A DNA stretch of 64,000 nucleotides, taken from positions 79,731 to 143,730 of IMG/VR virus record IMGVR_UViG_3300035670_000030; one strand, 5' to 3'. The notes beneath the pieces are model-generated. The model searched no databases, was not told the DNA's origin, and saw only the letters and a list, made by a program, of their open reading frames with translations. The DNA is from a virus. The position numbers and the translations under genes were made by a program. Position 1 is the first letter of the stretch; the number at the start of each line of letters is the position of its first letter. Of the stretch, positions 48,290-64,000 are shown one piece after another.

Positions 48290-49449
48290 GGCGTATTTGT
48301 TCCTGTAGTTACAGACCAACCGCGACTTCGAAGAGTCGCTACATCAGTAATACCTTGTCCGGTTGGTTGAGAATTTGTTGCACCTCCTAGATTTAATACA
48401 CATGTCCCGCTAGCTGTAGTTCGACCAGCTGCAACAAAAGATGAAAGAATACTATTAACTGCTGTTGCGACAAGATTATTATTATCAGCTCTAAAAAATC
48501 CAAGAGTGCTAGGAAGAGAACCTCCAGCAAAACTTGTTAATTGATTGTTTTGACAGAAGAAAAACTGAAGCCCAGTAATAGTACTAAAACTAGGAATAGA
48601 TCCTGTTAATTGGTTGCTATTGCAATAAAAATCTCTAAGTGGTATATTATTATTTAAACTTGGAATCGGTCCTGTTAATTGGTTGTTATTACAATAAAAA
48701 AACTGAAGCCCCGTATTAGCACTGAGATTTGGAATCTGTCCTGTTAATTGATTTAATTCACAATGAAAATCTTGAAGTAGTGTATTATTACTTAAATTAG
48801 GAATAGGTCCTGTAAGCTTGGTTGTTCCTGATTGATTTTCACAACGAAAAGCTTCAAGTTTTGTGTGTGTTGCAAGACTTGGAATAGGCCCTGTTAACCT
48901 GTTTGATCCACAACGAAAATCCACAAGTTCTAAATTATTCGTAAAATTTGGAATTTGACCTGTTAGAAAATTACTATAACAATAAAAAGTTTTAAGATCT
49001 GTATTAAAGGACAAATTTGGAATACTCCCCGTTAGTTGATTTGTATAGCACCGAAAATCTAAAAGATTCACATTATTATCCAAATTTGGAATTGTTCCTG
49101 ATAACAAATTTCTATCACAATAAAAATCCTCAAGCTGTGTGTTAGCACTTAGACTTGGGATAGATCCAGTCAGCAGATTGAAAAAACAAAAGAATTCAAC
49201 TAATCCAGTATTTGAATTAATATTAGGAATACTTCCAGTAATACTATTTCTTGAATAATTCATGCTCACTAAATTTGGATTATTTTCAAATCCACTAATT
49301 GCAGTAATAGCATTATTAATACATGTAAAAGTTTTTAAATTAGGAAATGCAGATAAATTAACAGTTCCTCCTAATTTTGGAGAACTTGCACCACAATTAA
49401 TTTCTGTAATTATTGGGTTATTTTGTAATATTAAACTAATTCCAGCCAT
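48286..49449 (-). CDS. Leucine-rich-repeat fibre protein (LTGxIP type)
   Basis: 387 residues. About a dozen repeats of 22-23 residues follow the plan NxLTG[SPQ]IPxLxxNTxLxxFxCxxN from residue ~60 to ~330. This is the LTGxIP-type leucine-rich repeat best known in plant receptor proteins, with a conserved Cys in nearly every repeat. It should form an elongated solenoid, fit for receptor binding. It begins two codons after the TAA of the upstream 84-residue gene and in the same frame, so both may once have been one protein. Part of the second fibre cluster. Confidence 0.8.
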   Translation of the reverse strand: MAGISLILQNNPIITEINCGASSPKLGGTVNLSAFPNLKTFTCINNAITAISGFENNPNLVSMNYSRNSITGSIPNINSNTGLVEFFCFFNLLTGSIPSLSANTQLEDFYCDRNLLSGTIPNLDNNVNLLDFRCYTNQLTGSIPNLSFNTDLKTFYCYSNFLTGQIPNFTNNLELVDFRCGSNRLTGPIPSLATHTKLEAFRCENQSGTTKLTGPIPNLSNNTLLQDFHCELNQLTGQIPNLSANTGLQFFYCNNNQLTGPIPSLNNNIPLRDFYCNSNQLTGSIPSFSTITGLQFFFCQNNQLTSFAGGSLPSTLGFFRADNNNLVATAVNSILSSFVAAGRTTASGTCVLNLGGATNSQPTGQGITDVATLRSRGWSVTTGTNTP

Positions 49450-51120: not shown

Positions 51121-52359
51121 TTATTGATCTATAATGTCATTGTTTCCGTCGATGCAGTTACGCATCAATCCCCCGCCACTGACGGGTTCAAATGTTCCAG
51201 AAGTCAGGCGACATTCAAAAAATTTACCAGTAAGGAAACCGCTAAGACCTCCGAAGCCATATAGGCCAGCTATACAATTTGTAAATGTTCCGCTAGCCGT
51301 GCCGCCATTACCGCCGAAGTTTCCATCACCACCGATGCAATCTATAAATGTTCCGCTTGCATTTCCAATAGTATCACCAAAGCTGTTAGTGCCAGCAATA
51401 CAGCGTATAAATATTCCGCTAGCAGCTCCAAGACTTCCGAAGCTAATATCACCAGCCCTGCAATCTGTAAATGTTCCGCTAGCTATACCACCATCACCAC
51501 CAAACGAAGCAAGACCACCTATGCAATTAGTAAATATGCCATTAGCAATACCAGCATTGCCACCAAAGCTGTAATTACCTGCAATGCAATCTGTAAATGT
51601 TCCACTTGCTACTCCGGAAGAACCACTAAACGAGTTAGAAGATCCAATACAACCCGTAAATGTACCACTAGATGTAATCCCAAAACACTCATCCCCACCT
51701 AGGCAATTAATGAATGTCCCACTAGCTAATCCGTACCCACCAAATGAACTATATTGTGCAATACAATTCGTAAATATACCGCTAGCTATTCCCGTAAATC
51801 CCCCACCAAAACTGTAATTACCTCCAATGCAATTTGTAAAAGTTCCACTTGATTGCCCTCCGTTACCGCCAAAACTTTCATCGCCCCCAACGCAATCTTC
51901 AAATCTTTGAAGTGGCAAATCGTTACCTATCTTAAAAGCCTGAGAACCAACACTAATACCCTGAACGCGTACATCATTTGCGGTTACATTGAAGGTGTTG
52001 CCCGTAATGGTGACGGCAGGAATTGCCCCTTTTTCTAGCTTTTGCGCTCCGAGGCCAATGATATCCACATACTGCGCGTCAATTGCAAGTTCAGATGATA
52101 AAGAATAATTACCTGGCATTATAATTAAACATGCCCTATTTGTAGAACTTTTAGCCTGACCATTTGGAGTTAAAGCCTTTGCTTCATTATATTTTGTTGC
52201 TAAATTATCTTCAGGTTCTGCTACTATATAAGTATCAGTACTTTTAATTACAGCCTGTTGAGATATCAATTCTTCAATTGTAGATAAATCTATATCTCCA
52301 GGTGTTGTTGTAGAAGGATACTCCTGTTCTGCCTTTCTAATTATATTTCTAATAGCCAT
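51121..52359 (-). CDS. Beta-helix fibre with tandem ~23-residue repeats
   Basis: 412 residues. The N-terminal ~140 residues include a helix and a pectate-lyase-type start (RACLIIMPGNYSLSSELAI). From ~150 to ~390 about a dozen repeats follow the plan ASGTFTDCIGGxxSFGGxGG, with Cys stacked at one position per turn, the hallmark of a right-handed parallel beta helix. Repeats are also visible at DNA level in the plus strand (TTCCGCTAGC-type words). Likely a receptor-binding or depolymerase-like spike, though no catalytic residues could be identified. First gene of the second fibre cluster, behind a GTGTAA motif 10 nt upstream. Confidence 0.8.
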   Translation of the reverse strand: MAIRNIIRKAEQEYPSTTTPGDIDLSTIEELISQQAVIKSTDTYIVAEPEDNLATKYNEAKALTPNGQAKSSTNRACLIIMPGNYSLSSELAIDAQYVDIIGLGAQKLEKGAIPAVTITGNTFNVTANDVRVQGISVGSQAFKIGNDLPLQRFEDCVGGDESFGGNGGQSSGTFTNCIGGNYSFGGGFTGIASGIFTNCIAQYSSFGGYGLASGTFINCLGGDECFGITSSGTFTGCIGSSNSFSGSSGVASGTFTDCIAGNYSFGGNAGIANGIFTNCIGGLASFGGDGGIASGTFTDCRAGDISFGSLGAASGIFIRCIAGTNSFGDTIGNASGTFIDCIGGDGNFGGNGGTASGTFTNCIAGLYGFGGLSGFLTGKFFECRLTSGTFEPVSGGGLMRNCIDGNNDIIDQ

Positions 52360-57001: not shown

Positions 57002-57397
57002 TATTTATCCTATATATTACATAAATATTCTTAAATTGTTACGGTTAAATTAAATTAATTAAAACAAAATACCCCGACCAAATTTCCAGATTGATTTGTT
57101 TCTTGATTAGTACAATTAGTCTATTTTTTTAAAAAAAGGTAGGGGGTACATATATATAGAAATACCCACTCTTCTATACATAAGAATAAGGATATGTATA
57201 GGAATATAAGAGAGATGGATTAAATTAAATTAATTAAAATAAAATGTCTAGAGATTGAAATTTCACCCCCCCGCCACCTAAAATTAAAACGAACGTTCGA
57301 ATTTTTTCAAAAATGGGGAGGGGTTATCAACAAAAATAATTTGCAGAATCTTAAAAAAATCGCTTGCTTTTCTGCCGTCCTGTGGTAGAGTGTAGAC
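57002..57397 (+). other. Gene-free boundary between AT-rich and GC-richer regions
   Basis: No convincing gene in 396 bp. It contains a 26-bp AT-only-like direct repeat (57045-57070 and 57220-57245, one mismatch), a CGAACGTTCG palindrome at 57289-57298 near an A/T tract, a G-rich GGTAGGGGG run near 57138, and an A-rich tract leading into the first promoter of the GC-richer region. Composition changes sharply within this stretch. Confidence 0.6.
57364..57391 (+). promoter_or_regulatory. Leaderless-type promoter, unit 1
   Basis: TTGCTT, 16-bp spacer, TAGAGT preceded by TGTGG; ATG follows after exactly 6 nt at 57398. An AAAAAAATCGC tract lies upstream of the -35. Confidence 0.75.
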
Positions 57398-57580
57398 ATG
57401 AAGAAGAAATACTACACCAGCACAGAGATCATCGAATACGCCGAACAGACTGGCGCGGTCTGCACGTTCGCCAGCCTCAACCTCCGCATCTTCAAGGGAT
57501 GGACTGCGAAGGGTAGCTATGAGGTCAAGTTCCACAGGATCGAGCCTTGCGTGTGGCAGAAAAAAATCGTCAAAAAATAA
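57398..57580 (+). CDS. Small basic protein (60 aa), leaderless
   Basis: 60 residues, MKKKYYTSTEIIEYAEQTG..., mixed helix/strand, net basic, no known family. The ATG lies 6 nt behind a -10 box and no Shine-Dalgarno sequence is present, so the start is fixed by the promoter. First gene of the GC-richer region and first member of unit 1. Codon use (ATC, AAC, CTC, TTC) differs strongly from the AT-rich late genes. Confidence 0.65.
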   Translation: MKKKYYTSTEIIEYAEQTGAVCTFASLNLRIFKGWTAKGSYEVKFHRIEPCVWQKKIVKK

Positions 57581-57581
57581 C

Positions 57582-57609
57582 TTGACTTTTTAAGGATCTC
57601 TGATAGATT
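57582..57609 (+). promoter_or_regulatory. Leaderless-type promoter within unit 1
   Basis: TTGACT, 16-bp spacer, TAGATT; ATG at 57616 after 6 nt. It starts two bases after the stop of the preceding gene. Confidence 0.75.
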
Positions 57610-57615
57610 AAAGAC

Positions 57616-57846
57616 ATGAACACATACGATAACGAAATCATCCACAAAGGCAAAGAATACTACCTTTCGACGGAGTATGACTTTGATCACACTGATACCC
57701 TGCAACTCTCTGGCTTTGTCTTGACTGATGAAGACGGCGAAGAAATCTCGCAAGAGGCCTTCGAAGCAAACGAAGATCTTTATGATCACGTTTGCACTAT
57801 CCTTGCAAACGAAAGCGCCGTCTGCTATGGCGGCGCACCTTGCTAA
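57616..57846 (+). CDS. Small acidic protein (76 aa), leaderless
   Basis: 76 residues, acidic (LTDEDGEEISQEAFEANEDLYDH), beginning MNTYDNEIIHKGKEYYLSTEYDF. No recognised family. Small acidic proteins of this size in phage early regions often bind host enzymes or mimic DNA, but that is only a possibility here. It has its own promoter directly upstream. A 28-residue membrane peptide follows 4 bp after the stop. Confidence 0.65.
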   Translation: MNTYDNEIIHKGKEYYLSTEYDFDHTDTLQLSGFVLTDEDGEEISQEAFEANEDLYDHVCTILANESAVCYGGAPC

Positions 57847-57850
57847 CACT

Positions 57851-57937
57851 ATGACACACATCATTATGACATACATCGCAGAAGCACTCGCCGTGGTGCT
57901 CATCCTCCTGCTTGGCGTTGCGATCCTGTCGATCTAA
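57851..57937 (+). CDS. Single-pass membrane peptide (28 aa)
   Basis: ATG at 57851 gives 28 residues: MTHIIMTYIAEALAVV followed by the hydrophobic LILLLGVAILSI. It lacks its own promoter and begins 4 bp after the preceding gene, in the junction CTAACACTATGACACA that recurs at 59571-59586. A longer frame running in from 57728 overlaps the previous gene and is unlikely. Ends unit 1 just before the first 70-bp repeat element. Confidence 0.5.
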   Translation: MTHIIMTYIAEALAVVLILLLGVAILSI

Positions 57938-57940
57938 GTT

Positions 57941-58010
57941 GTTGTAAATCAACAGCTTACACAGGCGCGCCCCGCCGCGCGCCGTAAGTCCTTGATAATG
58001 AAGCACTTAC
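57941..58010 (+). repeat. 70-bp intergenic element, copy 1
   Basis: Left arm GTTGTAAATCAACAGCTTAC, core containing GGCGCGCCCCGCCGCGCG, then GTAAGTCC and right arm TTGATAATGAAGCACTTAC. The arms are exactly 50 bp apart. It follows unit 1 by 3 bp. Confidence 0.9.
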
Positions 58011-58063
58011 AAATGTCAAGCAAAAAAGATAAAAAAAATTTTACACAATCGCAAAAAAATCCC

Positions 58064-58091
58064 TTGCTTTTTTCGTGCGCTGTGCTATTCT
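58064..58091 (+). promoter_or_regulatory. Leaderless-type promoter, unit 2
   Basis: TTGCTT, 16-bp spacer, extended -10 TGTGCTATTCT; ATG at 58098 after 6 nt. A-rich tract (AAAAAAATCCC) upstream. Confidence 0.85.
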
Positions 58092-58097
58092 ATAAAC

Positions 58098-58445
58098 ATG
58101 AAAGATAAAAAACTATTCAACGTCAACGGAACCCTCTGCAAGCTCGTCATCTCGGAGGATCACGAGGATGACTGCATCAAGCTCTGGCACGAACTCGTCA
58201 GCGTAGAGACTGGCAAAACCATCCACACCCTCTCGTGGTCGCCTTACTCCATCCCTTCAGATGAAGAAGTGCAACAGATCATCGACCTCGGTTTGCCAGA
58301 TGGATTGCGTTGGCACAACTCTCATCCCATGTCTGGGATGAACTTCTGCTCTGACATTCTCGCCATGTTCCTCGCTGGTGAGGAGCATCCCCAAGGCGGC
58401 AAGCTGGAGCTTGTGTTCCGTGTGCGTCATGCGAATGCCGCATAA
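58098..58445 (+). CDS. Hypothetical protein (115 aa), leaderless
   Basis: 115 residues, MKDKKLFNVNGTLCKLVISEDHEDD..., a beta-rich start followed by WHELVSVETGKTIHTLSWSPYSIP and a helical part. No family recognised. The start is placed by the promoter. It shares the opening MKDK with the first gene of unit 4 (60141) but little else. The next gene has its own promoter inside the 43-bp gap. Confidence 0.65.
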   Translation: MKDKKLFNVNGTLCKLVISEDHEDDCIKLWHELVSVETGKTIHTLSWSPYSIPSDEEVQQIIDLGLPDGLRWHNSHPMSGMNFCSDILAMFLAGEEHPQGGKLELVFRVRHANAA

Positions 58446-58453
58446 AAAATCTC

Positions 58454-58482
58454 TTGCAATAAACCTCAACATCCCATATCCT
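58454..58482 (+). promoter_or_regulatory. Leaderless-type promoter within unit 2
   Basis: TTGCAA, 17-bp spacer, TATCCT; ATG at 58489 after 6 nt. Confidence 0.65.
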
Positions 58483-58488
58483 AACAAT

Positions 58489-58707
58489 ATGAACATCACC
58501 AACGACCACTTCAACACGCAACCGCAATCCGACGAATATGCCAGCGAGCACGAGGAAGTGCGCGGCACGTTTGCGGCTGAACCAGCCGCAGAGCAGGAGC
58601 CGCAACCCTACGATGGGTGGGAAGGCTGCTGGCCTGGGGATGGATCGGGCATGGACGACCTCGCGGACATGCACGCGAACGAAGCCAATGACTACTACGA
58701 CGAGTAG
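58489..58707 (+). CDS. Small acidic protein, member of a two-copy family
   Basis: 72 residues. Residues ~5-20 (NDHFNTQPQSDEYASE) match residues ~8-24 of the 44-residue protein at 63091 (NDDFNTQIQSDEFASE), so the two are paralogues. The remainder is very acidic with many Pro, Gly and Tyr. The start chosen is the ATG 6 nt behind the -10 box; a longer upstream frame would run into the previous gene. Both paralogues are followed at their unit's end by the same TGTCATAG motif and a hairpin terminator. Confidence 0.65.
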   Translation: MNITNDHFNTQPQSDEYASEHEEVRGTFAAEPAAEQEPQPYDGWEGCWPGDGSGMDDLADMHANEANDYYDE

Positions 58708-58784
58708 TGTCATAGTCGTGTCATAATTTTCCGAACGTTTCGATGCGTGTCTCCATGGCGCGGGAATAAACGAAGAGGAAACGA

Positions 58785-58808
58785 AGCGCCCGTGTTCAAA
58801 CGGGCGTT
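58785..58808 (+). terminator. Hairpin terminator of unit 2
   Basis: CGCCCGT pairs with ACGGGCG (loop GTTCAA) and can extend by AG/TT. The T-rich tract after it is short. TGTCATAGTCGTGTCATA at 58708-58725 precedes it, as at the end of unit 7. Confidence 0.65.
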
Positions 58809-58840
58809 TCAATTTGCTGAAATTCAATGTTGCGTAAACC

Positions 58841-58909
58841 ATTGATATTCAACCACTTACATGGGCGCGCGGGGCGTGCGCGCGTAAGTCCTTGATATTC
58901 AACGACTTA
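58841..58909 (+). repeat. 70-bp intergenic element, copy 2 (most diverged core)
   Basis: Left arm ATTGATATTCAACCACTTAC, core ATGGGCGCGCGGGGCG-type, then GTAAGTCC and right arm TTGATATTCAACGACTTAA. The 50-bp arm spacing is kept although the core differs from the other copies. Confidence 0.88.
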
Positions 58910-58924
58910 AGTAGTGCCTTACGA

Positions 58925-58966
58925 ACCCGCATGAATACTGGCTTCGCGGGTGTCAAGCTTTTTTTT
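58925..58966 (+). terminator. Possible hairpin with T-run ahead of the RNA gene
   Basis: ACCCGC pairs with GCGGGT across a 15-base loop. GTCAAGC and then eight T residues follow. This could insulate the downstream RNA promoter from readthrough. Confidence 0.45.
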
Positions 58967-59000
58967 GCAAAAAAATTTTCATCGAATCGAAAAAAACTGG

Positions 59001-59028
59001 TTGCTTTCTGCGCGTTCTGTGGTATTCT
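59001..59028 (+). promoter_or_regulatory. Unit 3 promoter driving a non-coding RNA
   Basis: TTGCTT, 16-bp spacer, extended -10 TGTGGTATTCT, the same class as the protein-coding units. The transcription start predicted 6-7 nt downstream (59035) coincides with the first base of a closed RNA fold rather than an ATG. Confidence 0.8.
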
Positions 59029-59034
59029 GTATAC

Positions 59035-59142
59035 ATTGATAGGACAAGAGGTTTTCCACCGAGAAGGGTTGATCGCCGGAAAAAAGGTGGAAACGTAAGC
59101 GTCCGACCGTAATGGCAAGGCCTACTCCTATCAAAACTTTTT
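59035..59142 (+). ncRNA. Candidate structured non-coding RNA, ~105 nt
   Basis: No ORF follows the promoter. TTGATAGGA (59036-59044) pairs perfectly with TCCTATCAA (59126-59134), closing the whole segment, and AACTTTTTC follows. Inside, TTTCCACC (59053-59060) pairs with GGTGGAAA (59086-59093) over a 25-nt loop, and a GGC-AAG-GCC mini-hairpin occurs at 59114-59122. It does not match tRNA, tmRNA, RNase P, 6S, hammerhead, twister or pistol patterns I know. Promoter and closing stem agree on both ends of the transcript. It is probably a phage regulatory or decoy RNA. No homology evidence is available here. Confidence 0.6.
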
Positions 59143-59143
59143 C

Positions 59144-59171
59144 TTGACTCTCACCCTTAACCTGCTAAAAT
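59144..59171 (+). promoter_or_regulatory. Leaderless-type promoter within unit 3
   Basis: TTGACT, 16-bp spacer, TAAAAT; ATG at 59179 after 7 nt. This is the only coding case with 7 rather than 6 nt. It begins just after the T-run of the RNA gene. Confidence 0.75.
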
Positions 59172-59178
59172 AATCACT

Positions 59179-59370
59179 ATGAATAGAAACTACAGAAGCT
59201 GGCGCGACGAAGAACGCGAAGCAACCCTCGACTACCCGCTGGCCGTGGATCGTGAAGATCCCGCCTACCAGCACAACCCGAACGCCTACGAGCGTGAACT
59301 TGAGCGGTTGAACCGCTTGGAGGGTTGGGAGCGTAGCCGTGGCGGTTACTACCGCCGCAGCTACCGCTGA
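59179..59370 (+). CDS. Small Arg/Tyr-rich protein (63 aa), leaderless
   Basis: 63 residues, rich in Arg, Glu and Tyr (NAYERELERLNRLEGWERSRGGYYRRSYR) with a helical middle and an RGG-like basic aromatic end, which suggests nucleic-acid binding. No family recognised. The start is set by the promoter. The stop precedes the next promoter by 10 bp. Confidence 0.6.
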   Translation: MNRNYRSWRDEEREATLDYPLAVDREDPAYQHNPNAYERELERLNRLEGWERSRGGYYRRSYR

Positions 59371-59380
59371 AAAAAGTCGC

Positions 59381-59409
59381 TTGACTTTCAGCCCCATTTC
59401 AACGATACT
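59381..59409 (+). promoter_or_regulatory. Leaderless-type promoter within unit 3
   Basis: TTGACT, 17-bp spacer, GATACT; ATG at 59416 after 6 nt. Confidence 0.65.
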
Positions 59410-59415
59410 TTTAAC

Positions 59416-59574
59416 ATGACAGAAAACACCACAACTGGCTGGCCCGAAGTCTGGAACTTCGACGAACCCCAAGACGATAACCTCACGCCCGAACAAGCGT
59501 TCGACATCCTTTTCGGCTATGCCGAAGAACGTCACCGCAACGATCCGTGCGCTCATCCCGAACCCAAACACTAA
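59416..59574 (+). CDS. Small acidic protein (52 aa), leaderless
   Basis: 52 residues: MTENTTTGWPEVWNFDEPQ, then DDNLTPEQAFDILFGYAEERH and a polar end. No family recognised. Its ATG is 6 nt from the -10 box. The frame is short but fully supported by the promoter and by tight spacing to the next ATG (TAACACTATG). Confidence 0.6.
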   Translation: MTENTTTGWPEVWNFDEPQDDNLTPEQAFDILFGYAEERHRNDPCAHPEPKH

Positions 59575-59578
59575 CACT

Positions 59579-59809
59579 ATGACACAACAAGACGGCATCA
59601 TCAAGTCGCTTGAAACCCTCATCAAGCACGAAAAAACAATCCAAGCTCAAGAGGCTTGCATCGTAGAACTGCGCGACATTCTCGCAAAAGCTCTCCACAC
59701 CATCACCATGCACGAACACAAGCTAAACCTCTTGTGTGGCGTGTCCACCACTCTCGCCGTCGAACTGACTGCGGTGAAAAACAAACAGGTTTCTTTCGGA
59801 GTCAACTAA
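59579..59809 (+). CDS. Small helical protein (76 aa)
   Basis: 76 residues. The N-terminal two thirds form an amphipathic helix or coiled coil (GIIKSLETLIKHEKTIQAQE, then ELRDILAKALHTITMHEHKL). No known family. I chose the ATG at 59579, 4 bp after the previous stop in a CTAACACTATGACACA junction identical in type to that at 57845, over an in-frame start at 59519 that would overlap the previous gene. No Shine-Dalgarno sequence. Confidence 0.65.
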   Translation: MTQQDGIIKSLETLIKHEKTIQAQEACIVELRDILAKALHTITMHEHKLNLLCGVSTTLAVELTAVKNKQVSFGVN

Positions 59810-59810
59810 C

Positions 59811-59966
59811 ATGAGCAAAATCATTATGACAATCGACACGCGCCCTCTTGCGAGGGCGATTGAACGTAGCGTTCGCAAGACCACTTGCAAGCCGTCCTTC
59901 GCCATGCGTGTCAAGAAAAAATTCGCGCGCAGGGCTAAGTTTTTTCGCGGTTGGTCTGAAGAGTAA
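59811..59966 (+). CDS. Small very basic protein (51 aa)
   Basis: 51 residues with many Arg and Lys, especially MRVKKKFARRAKFFRGW near the end. It begins 1 bp after the preceding stop, so translation is probably coupled. The charge suggests nucleic-acid or ribosome binding. The stop codon lies immediately before the third 70-bp element and closes unit 3. Not a recognised family. Confidence 0.55.
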   Translation: MSKIIMTIDTRPLARAIERSVRKTTCKPSFAMRVKKKFARRAKFFRGWSEE

Positions 59967-59969
59967 AGC

Positions 59970-60039
59970 GTTGTAAATCAATGACTTACGGCGGCGCGCC
60001 CCGCCGCGCGGCGTAACCCATTGTAAATCAACGACTTAC
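59970..60039 (+). repeat. 70-bp intergenic element, copy 3
   Basis: Left arm GTTGTAAATCAATGACTTAC, core GGCGGCGCGCCCCGCCGCGC, then GGCGTAACCCA and right arm TTGTAAATCAACGACTTAC. It begins 4 bp after the stop codon of unit 3. Confidence 0.92.
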
Positions 60040-60106
60040 AGAATCATCTACGCAAGTGCCGTGCCAAGTGTGACTGTGTCATAAAAATAAAAAATAAAAA
60101 AATCTC

Positions 60107-60134
60107 TTGCTTTTCTGTGGCTCTGTGCTATTCT
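60107..60134 (+). promoter_or_regulatory. Leaderless-type promoter, unit 4
   Basis: TTGCTT, 16-bp spacer, extended -10 TGTGCTATTCT; ATG at 60141 after 6 nt. AAAAATAAAAAAATCTC lies just upstream. Confidence 0.85.
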
Positions 60135-60140
60135 TTAAGC

Positions 60141-60320
60141 ATGAAAGATAAAGCACCACAAAAAGGCCAACTCTTCGCGGTTGGAACAAAAGTCTATCGC
60201 GTGATCCGCAACGAAGGGGACAAGACCCACGTTCACCATCACGGGCAAATGGCCCTGTTCTACACGCGTCATCTCAAACCTGTCAGCCGTGACCGAGTCG
60301 CGGAATACTTGGGAAAATAG
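60141..60320 (+). CDS. Small SH3-like beta protein candidate (59 aa), leaderless
   Basis: 59 residues: MKDKAPQKGQLFAVGTKVYR, a VIRNEGDKTHVHHHG turn and a basic end. Pattern and size suggest a small SH3/KOW-like beta barrel. The unit 5 gene at 61294 (KTPQVGDKIMYRF) has a similar opening and could be related. The start is fixed by the promoter; an upstream in-frame ATG at 60117 lies inside the promoter and is rejected. Confidence 0.65.
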   Translation: MKDKAPQKGQLFAVGTKVYRVIRNEGDKTHVHHHGQMALFYTRHLKPVSRDRVAEYLGK

Positions 60321-60321
60321 T

Positions 60322-60350
60322 TTGACAATCACCACAAAACCTAACAGAAT
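60322..60350 (+). promoter_or_regulatory. Leaderless-type promoter within unit 4
   Basis: TTGACA (perfect consensus), 17-bp spacer, CAGAAT; ATG at 60357 after 6 nt. Starts one base after the previous stop codon. Confidence 0.7.
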
Positions 60351-60356
60351 CATAAC

Positions 60357-60545
60357 ATGACTAAAAAACACTTCACCGCCATCGCTGAAATCGTAGGGAA
60401 ACGCTTGCGCGAAAAAATCACCGCGCCAATCGGAGAATACGAGGCAATCGAGTTTGTAGCTAATGACTTGGCCGCATACTTCAAAACTCAAAACTCCAGC
60501 TTTGACAAAAATCGCTTTTTGGAAGCTGTCTATACCCAGAAATAA
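60357..60545 (+). CDS. Small helical protein (62 aa), leaderless
   Basis: 62 residues, mixed charge, largely helical (FTAIAEIVGKRLREKITAPIGEYEAIEFVANDLAAYF in parts). No recognised family or motif. Its ATG is 6 nt from the -10 box. The next gene begins 4 bp after its stop, so they form a small operon. Confidence 0.65.
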   Translation: MTKKHFTAIAEIVGKRLREKITAPIGEYEAIEFVANDLAAYFKTQNSSFDKNRFLEAVYTQK

Positions 60546-60549
60546 TCAC

Positions 60550-60729
60550 ATGAAAAAATACATCACATTCGACCGCATTGCCTATGCAATGTCTCTCGCA
60601 ACCTTCATCTTCATCGCTTGCACACTCTGTGCCGCTTGCGTGAACCTCCACAACAGAACAACCCAAAACCAAAAACAAATGCACGAAGAAGTTCGCGCCA
60701 TGTTTGCTCACGTTGAAAAACCTCTATGA
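60550..60729 (+). CDS. Small membrane protein (59 aa)
   Basis: 59 residues. One hydrophobic segment at ~residues 12-33 (YAMSLATFIFIACTLCAACVNL) is followed by a polar, Gln-rich helical tail. A weak lipobox-like LCAAC is present but the segment looks more like a membrane anchor. It begins 4 bp after the previous gene and its stop overlaps the next ATG (ATGA), giving translational coupling. Role unknown. Confidence 0.6.
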   Translation: MKKYITFDRIAYAMSLATFIFIACTLCAACVNLHNRTTQNQKQMHEEVRAMFAHVEKPL

Positions 60730-60926
60730 TCACGCCCAACATACAAAAAGCCCTCGAATCAAACGGAGTCCGCTTCTATGCAAAAGACTTTCTCATGGAA
60801 GGCTTGCGGAAAGACTGCGTTGACGCCGTGCATGATGCTCAACTTGTTTATGAGTTGCTGAAAGAACGCATGGAAATAATCCTTGACCTTAAACCCAAAT
60901 TCCCCGAAAATCAAAACAATGAGTAA
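60726..60926 (+). CDS. Small helical protein (66 aa)
   Basis: 66 residues, MITPNIQKALESNGVRFYAKDF..., charged and largely helical. No recognised family. The ATGA overlap with the preceding gene and an 8-bp overlap with the following gene show it is part of a coupled run. Function unknown. Confidence 0.65.
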   Translation: MITPNIQKALESNGVRFYAKDFLMEGLRKDCVDAVHDAQLVYELLKERMEIILDLKPKFPENQNNE

Positions 60927-61110
60927 AGAACAAGTCAAAGCCGTGTGCGACTTCTCGCACGATGTCATAATGAAAGTCAAGAAGCTCGTCGGCATCAAGC
61001 CGCGCCAAGAGTCGCTTCTGTGTCATAGTCTGTGGCACCTCAACACCTCCAACTGGGTTGAGCGCATCACGGCAAATGGCATCATTGATCGCTACATCGT
61101 AAAGCACTAA
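60919..61110 (+). CDS. Small basic protein (63 aa)
   Basis: 63 residues, starting MSKEQVKAVCDFSHDVIMKVKK and ending IDRYIVKH. I chose the ATG at 60919, overlapping the previous gene by 8 bp, rather than one 36 bases upstream, because it gives the tightest coupling. Its stop TAA forms part of the left arm of the fourth 70-bp element. No recognised family. Confidence 0.6.
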   Translation: MSKEQVKAVCDFSHDVIMKVKKLVGIKPRQESLLCHSLWHLNTSNWVERITANGIIDRYIVKH

Positions 61111-61174
61111 TAATTAAGCACTTAGGGCGGCGCGCCCCCCGTGCGAATGTAAGTCGTTGTAAATCAAACACTTA
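61106..61174 (+). repeat. 70-bp intergenic element, copy 4
   Basis: Left arm ACTAATAATTAAGCACTTAG, core GGCGGCGCGCCCCCCG, then TGTAAGTCG and right arm TTGTAAATCAAACACTTAT. It begins inside the last codons of the preceding gene; the arm supplies its TAA stop. Confidence 0.88.
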
Positions 61175-61259
61175 TGAATAGGTGCAAATACTATCATACC
61201 AGTGAGAGAATGTCAAGAATAAAAATGCAAAAAATAAAAATAATTTTCTAAAAAATCTC

Positions 61260-61287
61260 TTGCGTTTTTTCATATGTGTGCTATCTT
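61260..61287 (+). promoter_or_regulatory. Leaderless-type promoter, unit 5
   Basis: TTGCGT, 16-bp spacer, extended -10 TGTGCTATCTT; ATG at 61294 after 6 nt. Long A-rich tract upstream. Confidence 0.8.
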
Positions 61288-61293
61288 GTATTC

Positions 61294-61515
61294 ATGTTAA
61301 GTAAAACACCACAAGTGGGAGATAAGATCATGTATCGGTTCTCCCAAGGCAAAAAGAAATACCCCGCAACAATCATCGCCATCGAGGGCGAACACTGCGT
61401 GTTCACGCTGGATGGTGACTCTTACGATCCTACGCCCACCAAGTGGCCTATGTGGCATGGCCTCCTCTACGACTACGACGAGACCCTTGTCAAGAAAAAA
61501 AGAAAGTGGTGCTAA
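61294..61515 (+). CDS. Small SH3-like beta protein candidate (73 aa), leaderless
   Basis: 73 residues: MLSKTPQVGDKIMYRF, a strand-rich middle (YPATIIAIEGEHCVFTLDGD) and a basic KKKRKWC tail. The plan resembles a small SH3/Tudor-like barrel, and the opening is similar to the 59-residue unit 4 protein. This is the only gene in unit 5. An in-frame ATG at 61276 lies inside the promoter and is rejected. Confidence 0.65.
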   Translation: MLSKTPQVGDKIMYRFSQGKKKYPATIIAIEGEHCVFTLDGDSYDPTPTKWPMWHGLLYDYDETLVKKKRKWC

Positions 61516-61518
61516 ACC

Positions 61519-61587
61519 ACTAATAATCAAACACTTACGCTAGCGCGCCCCGCCGCGCGGCGTAACTCGTTGAAAATCAACAACTTA
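61519..61587 (+). repeat. 70-bp intergenic element, copy 5
   Basis: Left arm ACTAATAATCAAACACTTAC, core GCTAGCGCGCCCCGCCGCGC, then GGCGTAACTCG and right arm TTGAAAATCAACAACTTAG. It starts 4 bp after the stop codon of unit 5. Confidence 0.9.
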
Positions 61588-61665
61588 GGCATTATGACAT
61601 TCAGAAAGCGTGCCAAGTGTGACTACCAAGCACAAAAAAATATTTTTTAAATCGCAAAAAATTCC

Positions 61666-61693
61666 TTGCATTTTTGGGAACCTGTGGTATTCT
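61666..61693 (+). promoter_or_regulatory. Leaderless-type promoter, unit 6
   Basis: TTGCAT, 16-bp spacer, extended -10 TGTGGTATTCT; ATG at 61700 after 6 nt. AAATCGCAAAAAATTCC lies upstream. Confidence 0.85.
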
Positions 61694-61699
61694 TACAAC

Positions 61700-61939
61700 A
61701 TGAACATCACCAAAGAAGAACTCCGTGACTCTCTCGTTAACGCTCGCGCCGCCTTGGCTCTGCAAGTCCGCGACCATTACAAACACCGCAACGGCTTTTG
61801 CGGAAAATCTTTTCGCGGTATGATCCGCGAAAATCTCCGCGCTTTGCGCTTGTTGGGTAATCTCGAAACCATCGACGCGAAAGTCTACACGTTCGACGCT
61901 CGCATCTTGGGTCGTGTCAAAAAAGCTCTTGCCAAGTAA
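61700..61939 (+). CDS. Small basic helical protein (79 aa), leaderless
   Basis: 79 residues, strongly basic and helical (MNITKEELRDSLVNARAAL, then NLRALRLLGNLETIDAKVYTF and KKALAK). Possibly nucleic-acid binding. A longer frame from 61610 runs through the promoter and is rejected. The next gene's -35 box is inside its last codons. Confidence 0.65.
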   Translation: MNITKEELRDSLVNARAALALQVRDHYKHRNGFCGKSFRGMIRENLRALRLLGNLETIDAKVYTFDARILGRVKKALAK

Positions 61940-61957
61940 AGCAAACTCTGACAAAAT
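61929..61957 (+). promoter_or_regulatory. Leaderless-type promoter overlapping the upstream gene's end
   Basis: TTGCCA, 17-bp spacer, CAAAAT; ATG at 61964 after 6 nt. Weak hexamers, but the spacing is identical to the strong cases. Confidence 0.55.
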
Positions 61958-61963
61958 CACCAC

Positions 61964-62647
61964 ATGAAACTACTAAGCACCAATAACACCAAAATCAAAA
62001 AAGGCGAAAAACTCGGCTGGCGCACCTACGGCTTGTCGCTTTCTCCCGCTGGCAAGTCTGGAAAACAATTCTGTCCGCATCGTTCGGCTGGCTGTGAGTT
62101 TGCCTGTCTCGACACTTCGGGCATGGGCATTTTCTCAAACGTGCAAGACGCTCGCCTTGCAAAGTCGCGTTTCTTCATTGATAGCCGCAACGATTTTCTC
62201 GCACAGTTGCATAAAGAATTGCACAACGCTGAAAAGTGGAGCGCAAAAAATCAAATGCCCGTTGCTTGCCGTCCGAATGTCCTTTCTGACCTTCCTTTCC
62301 ATAAGCTCATCGACATGGCACGCTTTCCATCAATCCAGTTTTACGATTACACGCCGAACCTTCAACGCATGATGCAGTTTCTGAATGGCGAACTACCGAA
62401 AAATTACCATCTGACTTTTTCGCGCAAAGAGGATAATCAGCATCGTGTTCATGCGGTTGTTGCCGCTGGTGGCAACGTGGCGGTTGTCTTTAATGAGTTG
62501 CCCGAAACCTATCTCGGCAAGCCTGTCATAAACGGAGACGAAAGCGACTTGCGTTTTCTCGACCCGCAAGGCGTCATCGTCGGACTCAAAGCAAAGGGCA
62601 AAGCTCTAAAAGATCAGTCTGGATTCGTGGTGCAAGTTGGTGTATAA
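61964..62647 (+). CDS. Gp88/DUF7227-like phage protein
   Basis: 227 residues. It starts LLSTNNTKIKKGEKLGWRTYGLSLSPAGKSG, then CPHRSAGCEFACLDTSGMGIFSNVQDAR. The LSTxNTK opening and the CPxxxxGCxxxCL cysteine cluster (near residues 38-49) match a family of phage proteins related to mycobacteriophage gene product 88 (DUF7227 as I recall it). Later segments (RPNVLSDLPFHKL, SIQFYDYTPNLQRM, YHLTFSRKEDN) are also typical. The cysteines could bind a metal or cluster; biochemical function is unknown. It is the longest gene in the GC-richer region. Confidence 0.75.
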   Translation: MKLLSTNNTKIKKGEKLGWRTYGLSLSPAGKSGKQFCPHRSAGCEFACLDTSGMGIFSNVQDARLAKSRFFIDSRNDFLAQLHKELHNAEKWSAKNQMPVACRPNVLSDLPFHKLIDMARFPSIQFYDYTPNLQRMMQFLNGELPKNYHLTFSRKEDNQHRVHAVVAAGGNVAVVFNELPETYLGKPVINGDESDLRFLDPQGVIVGLKAKGKALKDQSGFVVQVGV

Positions 62648-62656
62648 TGAGCAACT

Positions 62657-62728
62657 ATGACAATCCTAACCTTGCTCGCTGTGTGTGGCTTGTGTGCTTT
62701 TGCAATTTATAACAACGAAAAAAAATGA
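62657..62728 (+). CDS. Membrane peptide (23 aa)
   Basis: ATG at 62657 encodes MTILTLLAVCGLCAFAIYNNEKK, wholly hydrophobic with a polar tail. Its TGA overlaps the next ATG (ATGA), which supports translation. An alternative overlapping frame from 62648 exists (21 residues) but lacks this coupling. Similar one-pass peptides are encoded at 57851 and 60550. Confidence 0.45.
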   Translation: MTILTLLAVCGLCAFAIYNNEKK

Positions 62729-62883
62729 CCTTCAATCTAATCGCACGAAAAAATCTGTTTCGCTTGTCTGAATACTTTTTCCACTTGGCTCTGTGGTGGG
62801 AACGCGCTGGCGTTATGACACTCTCTAACGGGTTTGTCATAGCGTGGGAGTATTGCCTCGACGCACGCGATAAGTTGAGATAA
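62725..62883 (+). CDS. Small amphipathic protein (52 aa)
   Basis: 52 residues, MTFNLIARKNLFRLSEYFFH, then LALWWERAGVMTLSNGF and a charged end DARDKLR. Many aromatic residues on an amphipathic helix suggest membrane or protein-surface contact. ATGA overlap with the upstream peptide. It closes unit 6; copy 6 of the repeat starts 8 bp after the stop. No family recognised. Confidence 0.55.
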   Translation: MTFNLIARKNLFRLSEYFFHLALWWERAGVMTLSNGFVIAWEYCLDARDKLR

Positions 62884-62891
62884 CGTAAAGC

Positions 62892-62961
62892 GTTGATAAT
62901 CAACGACTTACGGCGGCGCGCCCCGCCGCGCTGCGCAAGTGCTTGATATTCAATGACTTAC
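62892..62961 (+). repeat. 70-bp intergenic element, copy 6
   Basis: Left arm GTTGATAATCAACGACTTAC (TTGATAATCAA is a perfect palindrome), core GGCGGCGCGCCCCGCCGCGC, then TGCGCAAGTGC and right arm TTGATATTCAATGACTTAC. Confidence 0.92.
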
Positions 62962-63056
62962 GCAATATGCTACGCAGGAAGCGTGCCAACATAGGCTTAA
63001 ACGAGCGTTTGAAAATTCGTCAACAAAAATAGTTTCTAAAAATGCAAAAAAAATCG

Positions 63057-63084
63057 TTGCACTCTCATGCCCTGCTGCTATTCT
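63057..63084 (+). promoter_or_regulatory. Leaderless-type promoter, unit 7
   Basis: TTGCAC, 16-bp spacer, extended -10 TGCTATTCT; ATG at 63091 after 6 nt. A-rich tract AATGCAAAAAAAATCG lies upstream. Confidence 0.82.
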
Positions 63085-63090
63085 TTACCC

Positions 63091-63225
63091 ATGCAAGCGA
63101 ACTCCATCATCAACGACGACTTCAACACGCAAATCCAAAGCGACGAATTCGCTTCGGAATATAATGCTTGGCTCGACGAGCAGGAACTGCAATACTGGCG
63201 CGAAATCGAAGCGAAAGGAAACTAG
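63091..63225 (+). CDS. Short paralogue of the unit 2 acidic protein (44 aa), leaderless
   Basis: 44 residues: MQANSIINDDFNTQIQSDEF, then ASEYNAWLDEQELQYWREIEAKGN. Residues 8-24 match the 58489 protein at protein and DNA level. The C-terminal halves differ: helical and charged here, Pro/Gly-rich there. ATG exactly 6 nt behind the -10 box. Role unknown. Confidence 0.65.
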   Translation: MQANSIINDDFNTQIQSDEFASEYNAWLDEQELQYWREIEAKGN

Positions 63226-63229
63226 TTTT

Positions 63230-63421
63230 ATGACAAACACAAACCCACTGGAAGGCTTCGTCTCCGTTTGCTGCGGAGCCGAACACGACATCAACGCCGA
63301 ATACCATATGCTCAACGAAAGCATCGTGGGCGGCTGCTCGGTCTGCGGACGTTACTCGGAGTTTGACATCTTTGAGAACTTCGTAGAAAATTCTCTTGAC
63401 CTCGAAACCTCTAACCTCTAA
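63230..63421 (+). CDS. Small zinc-ribbon-like protein (63 aa)
   Basis: 63 residues. CC near residues 14-15 and CSVC at ~36-39 give a candidate two-knuckle zinc site of the type CCGAEHD..CSVCGRYSEF. It starts 4 bp after the previous gene and so is co-transcribed. Small phage zinc ribbons often contact host proteins or RNA polymerase, but no target can be inferred. Confidence 0.65.
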   Translation: MTNTNPLEGFVSVCCGAEHDINAEYHMLNESIVGGCSVCGRYSEFDIFENFVENSLDLETSNL

Positions 63422-63433
63422 TCTCTCAACTCT

Positions 63434-63880
63434 ATGAACCAAGCAAACATCGTAATCAGCGCATACGGCAACGGCATCGCTGTCGGACTCAACGGAACCA
63501 AAGAAGAAATCGAACGCACGTTCAATCGCTTCTTTAACTGGGGCGCAACTGGCATCGGTGAACTCGGCAGTTACTTGCACGAACTCTCTGACAACTTCGC
63601 TTACTTCCTCTCGACGGAAGCGGATATGCTTCGCGCTATGACATACGAAACTATGACACGCTGGCAAGACTCACCTGTGAGCGAACAATACAAAGCGCGT
63701 CCGCGCTTCCACAAGAAACCGAACGGCAAAAAGTTTCGCGCTGACGCAGAGCAAGCTGCGCGTGACGAATACGACTCGTTCCCACGCGAGAGCTTCATGC
63801 TGTTCGCTAAAACTCCCACTCATATCTATCAGCAACTCGATGGAGGCGCGCCCGATTGGGTGAGCGAGACAGAGGACTAA
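63434..63880 (+). CDS. Hypothetical protein (148 aa)
   Basis: 148 residues. A beta-alpha start (MNQANIVISAYGNGIAVGLNG) leads to KEEIERTFNRFFNW and later a basic segment RPRFHKKPNGKKFRADAEQAARDEY. No known family. It begins 12 bp after the zinc-ribbon gene without a Shine-Dalgarno sequence. It closes unit 7 and is followed by TGTCATAG repeats, a terminator and copy 7 of the repeat. Confidence 0.7.
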   Translation: MNQANIVISAYGNGIAVGLNGTKEEIERTFNRFFNWGATGIGELGSYLHELSDNFAYFLSTEADMLRAMTYETMTRWQDSPVSEQYKARPRFHKKPNGKKFRADAEQAARDEYDSFPRESFMLFAKTPTHIYQQLDGGAPDWVSETED

Positions 63881-63904
63881 TCTCTGTCATAGTCGTGTCA
63901 TAGT

Positions 63905-63932
63905 AAACGCTCGTGCAAACGGGCGTTTTACT
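63905..63932 (+). terminator. Hairpin terminator of unit 7
   Basis: AAACGCTCG pairs with CGGGCGTTT (nine pairs including one G-T; loop TGCAAA), followed by TACTTTT. It is preceded by TGTCATAGTCGTGTCATA at 63885-63902, exactly as at the end of unit 2. Confidence 0.7.
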
Positions 63933-63960
63933 TTTGCCCAAAATGAATGTGTTGTAAAGC

Positions 63961-64000
63961 GTTGAAGATCAAGCACTTACGGGCGCGCGCCCCGCCGCCC
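63961..64000 (+). repeat. 70-bp intergenic element, copy 7 (cut by the window end)
   Basis: Left arm GTTGAAGATCAAGCACTTAC and the core start GGGCGCGCGCCCCGCCGCCC are visible; the right arm lies beyond the window. Confidence 0.85.

Follow-up and report, generated by a model that had tools for sequence, protein, structure and literature searches.

The window analysed here, the terminal 64,000 nucleotides of a 143,730-base uncultivated virus record (IMG/VR record IMGVR_UViG_3300035670_000030; window base 64000 is contig base 143730), ends in a series of short gene units on the plus strand, and at the end of each lies a copy of the same 77-base-pair (bp) repeat, made of two palindromic arms around a core rich in guanine and cytosine (GC). 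The initial annotation had listed seven copies of an element of about 70 bp at this locus. The array is indeed there, although each true left arm starts about 7 bp before the position quoted, and although only six copies are complete, the seventh being truncated by the end of the contig. The 13 arms are arranged as follows.

57934–58010, element 1: arms 57934–57960 and 57984–58010, core 57961–57983; the left arm contains the TAA stop of a conserved short open reading frame (ORF)
58834–58910, element 2: arms 58834–58860 and 58884–58910, inverted core 58861–58883
59963–60039, element 3: arms 59963–59989 and 60013–60039; the left arm holds the TAA of ORF 59811–59966
61099–61175, element 4: arms 61099–61125 and 61149–61175; left arm with TAA 61108–61110, core divergent in its right half
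61512–61588, element 5: arms 61512–61538 and 61562–61588; TAA 61513–61515 in the left arm
62885–62961, element 6: arms 62885–62911 and 62935–62961; the preceding stop ends at 62883
63954–64000, element 7: left arm 63954–63980 and the beginning of the GC-rich core, the rest cut off by the contig end

The arms are imperfect palindromes of 27 bp, of the type GTAAGTCGTTGATNATCAACGACTTAC, and the two arms of a pair enclose a 23-bp GC-rich core; in each of the six complete copies, the arm starts are exactly 50 bp apart. The cores follow GGCGGCGCGCCCCGCCGCGCGGC, but this sequence is inverted at 58834 and has a divergent right half at 61099; the orthologue of element 2 in the relative G4 (L264:6998) likewise has an inverted core. 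Measured over the whole 143.7-kilobase (kb) contig, the array arms match the consensus with scores of 18–25 of 27 (at least 21 in all except two), and a search of both strands of the remaining ~137 kb, as had been proposed, gave no convincing arm and no non-array score above 18 of 27.

The gene units that these elements delimit, together with the associated promoter and terminator features, are listed below, with gene families given by their c numbers.

57398–57937, plus strand: unit ending at element 1, with families c0 and c2 and a short hydrophobic ORF
58032–58100, plus strand: promoter module, with a TTGC –35-like and a TATTCT –10-like motif
58098–58707, plus strand: unit between elements 1 and 2, families c12 and c6
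58787–58822, plus strand: hairpin (58787–58806) and T-run before element 2, after the unit stop at 58707
59179–59966, plus strand: unit between elements 2 and 3, families c17, c3 and c7
60141–61110, plus strand: unit between elements 3 and 4, families c4, c8, c5 and c9
61294–61515, plus strand: unit between elements 4 and 5, family c26
61700–62883, plus strand: unit between elements 5 and 6, including a GP88-family protein
61964–62647: the GP88-family protein (PF17338, 3.8e-41; phrog_1617, 2.9e-62)
63091–63880, plus strand: unit between elements 6 and 7, families c6, c18 and c14
63905–63938, plus strand: intrinsic-terminator-like hairpin and T-run before element 7, after the unit stop at 63880

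The description of every copy as lying after the last stop codon of a unit was nearly right: in four of the seven copies (57934, 59963, 61099 and 61512) the preceding TAA falls inside the left arm itself, while the left arm at 62885 begins two bases past the stop, and the copies at 58834 and 63954 are each preceded by a separate terminator, a hairpin plus T-run between stop and element. Copies of the promoter module end at 57399, 58099, 59036, 60142, 61295, 61701 and 63092. Because the ATG follows the –10 motif by only 7–8 nucleotides, these promoters probably give rise to leaderless messages. We also observe, in arrays with 50-bp spacing, a second conserved module of ~30 bp (..cag..gcGTGCCAAct) that is frequently found between right arm and promoter (58011–58040, 60040–60080, 61589–61640 and 62962–63010 in the window) and occupies the same place in relatives.

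The element is widespread among uncultivated phages. IMG/VR was scanned with a loose arm pattern, giving at least 119 stretches, and an arm profile was trained on the window arms and then refined. Among the IMG/VR matches listed, to which the counts in this and the following paragraph refer, the profile from 769 arms finds those 769 in 120 viral loci and 8 in shuffled sequence, confirming that the repeat is real. These arms pair up into at least 350 distinct elements across 83 loci; core GC averages 0.79, compared to a locus GC of 0.40 (350 pairs), and at least 54 contigs carry three or more pairs. In these 54 contigs, 90% of the pairs have their contig's own modal spacing, compared to 52% when spacings are dealt at random. 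The modal values span 39–58 bp, with 50 bp the commonest (26 contigs), followed by 48 bp (8 contigs). Thus, the 50-bp distance first noted in the window is not universal, while a constant spacing is kept within genomes.

Core length ranges from 14 to 31 bp, and cores occur in both orientations and resemble one another more closely within a contig than between contigs (similarity of 0.69 vs 0.57, irrespective of orientation). Certain arm bases hardly change even across very diverged phages, in contrast to the freely varying core. The elements are also not scattered inside genes, with just 17 of 350 midpoints falling in an ORF of at least 100 amino acids (aa), compared to 53% of random points. 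Two variants of the element deserve mention. In some cases, other hairpins (TGATCATCATGAAAT..ATTTCACGATCA; GTTCCCGAAATTCATTTCGGGAAC) stand between or after arms in place of the GC core, forming tandem arm chains (L269 reversed 6071–6291; L273:11248; L256:11819). In the family with 48-bp spacing (L015, L043, L098, L105, L127, L270 and L271), the promoter-side outer half-arm is replaced by AAATYTC/GARATTT, and the outer half-arm away from the promoter retains GTAA/TTAC. None of the isolated phages of the collection carries the element; Azobacteroides phage ProJPt-Bp1 was flagged as an isolated relative by a 22-bp match, but is without the array and was rejected as such, and the similarity of phoH to isolates reaches at most about 36%. 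No Rfam family matches the element, and a literature search, with most subscription papers outside its reach, found no earlier report of it.

The array lies in the early region of a clade of large uncultivated phages. In the near-complete relatives of 166–172 kb it forms one dense cluster of ~10–14 elements, with almost none elsewhere, and in G002 this cluster spans both contig ends, as expected for a circularly permuted genome. A homologue of the window phoH is present in all 10 array contigs tested (36–93% identity), and in the contigs that were laid out the array starts a few kilobases from phoH, together with a rise in GC. In the window, GC steps from about 30% to about 48% at ~57.3 kb. 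A chimeric contig, suspected from this jump, was rejected, as relatives show the same phoH-to-array layout. The cassette region has 45–50% GC in genomes of ~31–34% GC (window 57300–64000; G001 17.9–36 kb; G004 91.8–104.7 kb). RIIA-like, RIIB-like and GP88-family proteins are encoded in the array region, joined in the 48-bp family by an ArdC-like anti-restriction protein, and a T4-type terminase and a Pol III alpha-type polymerase are encoded outside it.

We note that the position of the element is not tied to one arrangement of the flanking genes. Pooling all families, with genes called by a simple codon-usage caller, elements occupy 147 of 381 co-directional gaps inside arrays (39%), 28 of 39 convergent gaps (72%) and 20 of 29 divergent gaps (69%). 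In the 48-bp family, for example, promoters lie on both sides of the element in the divergent gap between the ArdC-like gene and its neighbor, and an element also lies in the convergent gap between c4 and c3. The distance from element to promoter varies from about 4 to >60 bp, with the –35 motif of one divergent gap starting ~4 bp from the arm. As the element occupies convergent and divergent gaps too, it marks the border of a unit whatever the direction of the genes, and is not simply a terminator or an operator.

The borders are also where units are exchanged. The gene families of the relatives recur in both the same and regrouped units, with the junctions at elements. To locate the joints, we considered 97 elements of the 50-bp family, judging unit homology from sequence well away from the element, and calculated the excess identity over unrelated pairs for 104 pairs homologous upstream only and 82 pairs homologous downstream only; these pairs are not independent, and the number of exchanges is smaller than the pair count. 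Moving from the left outer arm to the right outer arm, the excess is 0.54, 0.35, 0.64, 0.31, 0.24, 0.11 and 0.21 in the upstream-only pairs, and 0.04, 0.24, 0.15, 0.19, 0.09, 0.26 and 0.27 in the downstream-only pairs. Judged by these identities, the left arm goes with whichever unit lies upstream and the right arm with the one downstream, and the joints therefore fall inside the element. The copies G3:10602 and G1:22008, for instance, are identical rightward from mid-core and differ leftward. Such exchange among relatives supports the recombination seam that was among the roles first suggested for the repeat. Identity fades gradually across the element, as in homologous recombination, and homologous recombination between repeats is the simplest route of unit exchange. 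A search for tyrosine recombinases (PF00589) was negative in all 11 phage contigs, which may be incomplete, and positive in all 14 control genomes, and a tyrosine-recombinase or integron system was rejected on this basis.

How the arms are recognized can be addressed from their symmetry. At nearly every position, symmetric arm bases pair as the product of independent columns predicts, with no notable excess anywhere, and pairing across the two arms of an element shows no excess either. The symmetry of the arms thus stems from recognition at two independent half-sites and not from folding; the absence of covariation led us to reject an RNA hairpin function of the arms and favors protein–DNA recognition. 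Pairing within cores is 0.54, compared to 0.44 in shuffled cores, with a mean folding z of about –0.5. The computed RNA hairpins of the element have energies of about –22 to –45 kcal mol–1, but no consistent U-tract follows them, as it would in an intrinsic terminator with its GC hairpin and subsequent U-tract.

The half-sites themselves resemble those of integration host factor (IHF), the published consensus of which is WATCARNNNNTTR (PMC8421141, PMC9519438). Read outward from the dyad, each half-arm has the form W-ATCAA-NNNN-TTR, such that the arm as a whole, YAANNNNTTGAT-W-ATCAANNNNTTR, comprises two IHF-type half-sites with a central W on the dyad common to both. Across 633 distinct arms, WATCAANNNNTTR (the WATCAA form) is exact in 36% of the 1,266 halves and has one mismatch in a further 37%; counted per arm, 63% contain an exact half-site and 92% one within a single mismatch. 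The deviations are those that WATCARNNNNTTR allows, namely, W at the dyad, and A or G both at position 6 (0.86/0.13) and at the last position (0.89/0.09). In the window, the arms of which were not chosen for a match to this consensus, an exact half-site is present in 11 of the 13 arms, among them arm 62885–62911 with both halves exact, and the remaining two deviate by a single mismatch; registers shifted by one base or more fit far worse. Furthermore, by our own geometry the steps flanked by the invariant T10 and A18, on either side of the dyad, are separated by 9 bp, matching the 9-bp separation of the IHF kinks (PMC8421141). We estimate that an arbitrary palindrome would fit the IHF consensus in some register in ~5 of 10,000 cases, and consider the match strong, but not proof. 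The protein-binding site that was initially proposed as one of several roles is thus favored by the symmetric half-sites, the absent covariation and the IHF-type consensus, and the symmetric form of the arm suggests either a homodimeric relative of HU/IHF or IHF bound either way round.

A scan of bacterial genomes returned mostly single palindromes, the one exception being a 6.8-Mb metagenome-assembled genome (MAG) from Microscillaceae (Bacteroidota; G011, JALONJ01) with 1,952 exact occurrences of YAANNNNTTGATWATCAANNNNTTR and none of the reversed control. The N4 letters of these copies vary, the copies are mostly intergenic where sampled, and some are in tandem or paired ~46 bp apart with AT-rich spacers (e.g., L175:536–790, L135 and L210). 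This motif is not general in the phylum, with 14 of 147 other Bacteroidota genomes having 1–4 copies. The single bacterial palindromes often lie 1–15 bp downstream of the 3′ end of a transfer RNA (tRNA) gene (L148:2584, L164:545, L171:164, L184:1410, L185:1070, L212:6084 and L222:3654), and in L184 an apparent integrase gene adjoins the palindrome; some of the tRNA-adjacent cases are probably terminators selected by the pattern.

Taking these observations together, we give about an even chance to the element being an IHF/HU-type architectural boundary that doubles as a cassette-exchange seam. It would act at the level of DNA as a boundary between early-region transcription units, with a dimer of the HU/IHF family, most simply supplied by the host, binding and sharply bending each arm. 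The two bends would flank a melting-resistant GC-rich core and so mark each unit end, whatever the direction of the neighboring genes, with a compact nucleoprotein structure that may insulate the unit against supercoiling or read-through; in simulation, bridging by IHF reportedly splits DNA into topological domains (PMC9519438). As every unit closes with this one near-symmetric 77-bp sequence, it is also the site at which units have been joined, moved and replaced, probably through the ordinary homologous recombination of the phage. We put forward only tentatively, and with more doubt than conviction, the broader proposal that paired symmetric IHF/HU-type bend sites around a GC clamp split the early region into separately controlled, exchangeable domains, that a nucleoid-protein insulator or border of this kind is new for phages, and that the same symmetric code is also used ~1,950 times in the Microscillaceae genome.

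Several points weigh against the IHF/HU-type boundary. The consensus match is post hoc, and the seam pairs are not independent, as noted above. The IHF sites of Escherichia coli are asymmetric and have an A-tract, while the arms are dyad-symmetric, with the consensus on both sides, which is why we name them IHF-type and not E. coli IHF sites; their N4 stretch also has an extra preference for A. The spacings of 39–58 bp across lineages share no common helical phase, and an IHF-type site leaves the role of the core unexplained. Finally, no HU/IHF-family gene (PF00216, PF18291) was found in the phage contigs, such that the factor would have to come from the host or be too diverged for these profiles, and the PF00216 (HU) matches in the Microscillaceae MAG are weak.

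Palindromic sites that do not covary would suit any dimeric binder, and the 13-bp half-site is long enough for a helix-turn-helix (HTH) protein of the phage. Each arm would then be a dimer operator, with the pair silencing or coordinating early promoters, or acting as a roadblock to polymerase in the manner of a stoperator, in line with the copies that lie near promoters, including the –35 motif ~4 bp from an arm. We nevertheless consider an HTH operator unlikely, as elements also occur in promoterless convergent gaps, the distance to the promoter is so variable, and the half-site reproduces the IHF consensus down to its degenerate letters. The position after stop codons, with several stops inside the arms, the stability of the computed hairpins and the raised pairing of the cores would fit a bidirectional terminator or a stabilizer of RNA 3′ ends, in which core and arms fold as one long RNA hairpin, comparable to attenuation by bacterial interspersed mosaic elements (BIMEs). 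The terminator that was among the initial suggestions is, however, disfavored by the copies between divergent promoters and by the two window copies already preceded by a separate terminator, and with no covariation within or between arms, core folding close to that of shuffled sequence, no consistent T-run and no Rfam family, we judge an RNA-level role quite improbable. Nothing was found in support of a replication site, which had also been suggested.

The exchange of cassette-like units at the element invites comparison with site-specific recombination, integron- or Xer-like, in which a recombinase would excise or insert units, and the greater likeness of cores within a contig, in both orientations, is what a homology-dependent crossover would give. 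Set against this are the missing PF00589 genes, core lengths that vary from 14 to 31 bp and the gradual fading of identity, and we hold this explanation to be very unlikely. The same exchange could also reflect a neutral homology seam, with repeats persisting by allowing shuffling and having no protein-dependent function, much as the promoter early stem-loop cassettes (PeSLs) of T4 are reported to mediate gene shuffling (PMC4503421). Here, the near invariance of arm bases across very diverged phages, next to a free core, implies selection on recognition, leaving a neutral seam with very little probability indeed.

Among known systems, the nearest in kind are the PeSLs, with the same place and evolutionary effect but another anatomy, and the IHF-carrying BIME repeats of enterobacteria (RIB/RIP). 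PeSLs were reportedly described in T4-like phages by Arbiol et al. in 2010 and Comeau et al. in 2014 (cited through PMC4503421), and they too are repeated intergenic motifs near promoters in the early or hypervariable region of large phages, where cassettes are shuffled; the present region likewise holds RIIA-, RIIB- and ArdC-type genes in cassettes shuffled at the motif. PeSLs differ in joining a conserved stem-loop terminator to an early promoter, whereas our element consists of paired protein-site-like palindromes around a GC core, without covariation or a T-run, lies in convergent and divergent gaps, and has its promoter separate and at a variable distance. BIME/RIB repeats and the Correia/NEMIS element of Neisseria, which at 155 bp carries an IHF site (PMC2229807), are similarly intergenic repeats in which palindromic sequence and an IHF site occur together, in many cases where units end. 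They have, however, a single IHF site, which is asymmetric and set amid RNA hairpins or transposon ends, whereas both arms of the phage element are dyad-symmetric and IHF-type, at a fixed spacing and in one cluster. In BIME/RIB repeats, repetitive extragenic palindromic (REP) units flank one IHF site; in the phage element the palindromes are themselves the IHF-type sites, and no REP units were seen. As defining features of PeSL and BIME/RIB repeats were looked for and not found, we file the element under neither, and there is a reasonable chance that it is a new kind of border element.

The stoperators of mycobacteriophages, bound by a temperate repressor, are short and asymmetric sites that occur singly and throughout the genome. 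They resemble the element in being many intergenic protein-binding sites per phage genome, but the element comprises paired palindromes in one early cluster per genome, and no integrase was found. Integron attC sites are end-of-cassette elements with internal symmetry and variable centers, and the phage element is alike in all three respects; in contrast, there is no integrase, the units are operons with their own promoters, and spacing and half-sites do not fit. The repeat offers a precise signature by which unit borders can be recognized in a widespread group of uncultivated large phages, and at which blocks of genes are exchanged. If the IHF/HU-type boundary is correct, these phages would insulate and modularize their early genes using a nucleoid protein, and a symmetric form of the IHF code would exist.

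Outside the array, the window also encodes proteins built from 69-bp (23-aa) leucine-rich-like and 63-bp (21-aa) CIGG..SFGG repeats (48535–49172 and 51121–52359, with a further case at L009:4121–5389), which are probably surface or fiber proteins.

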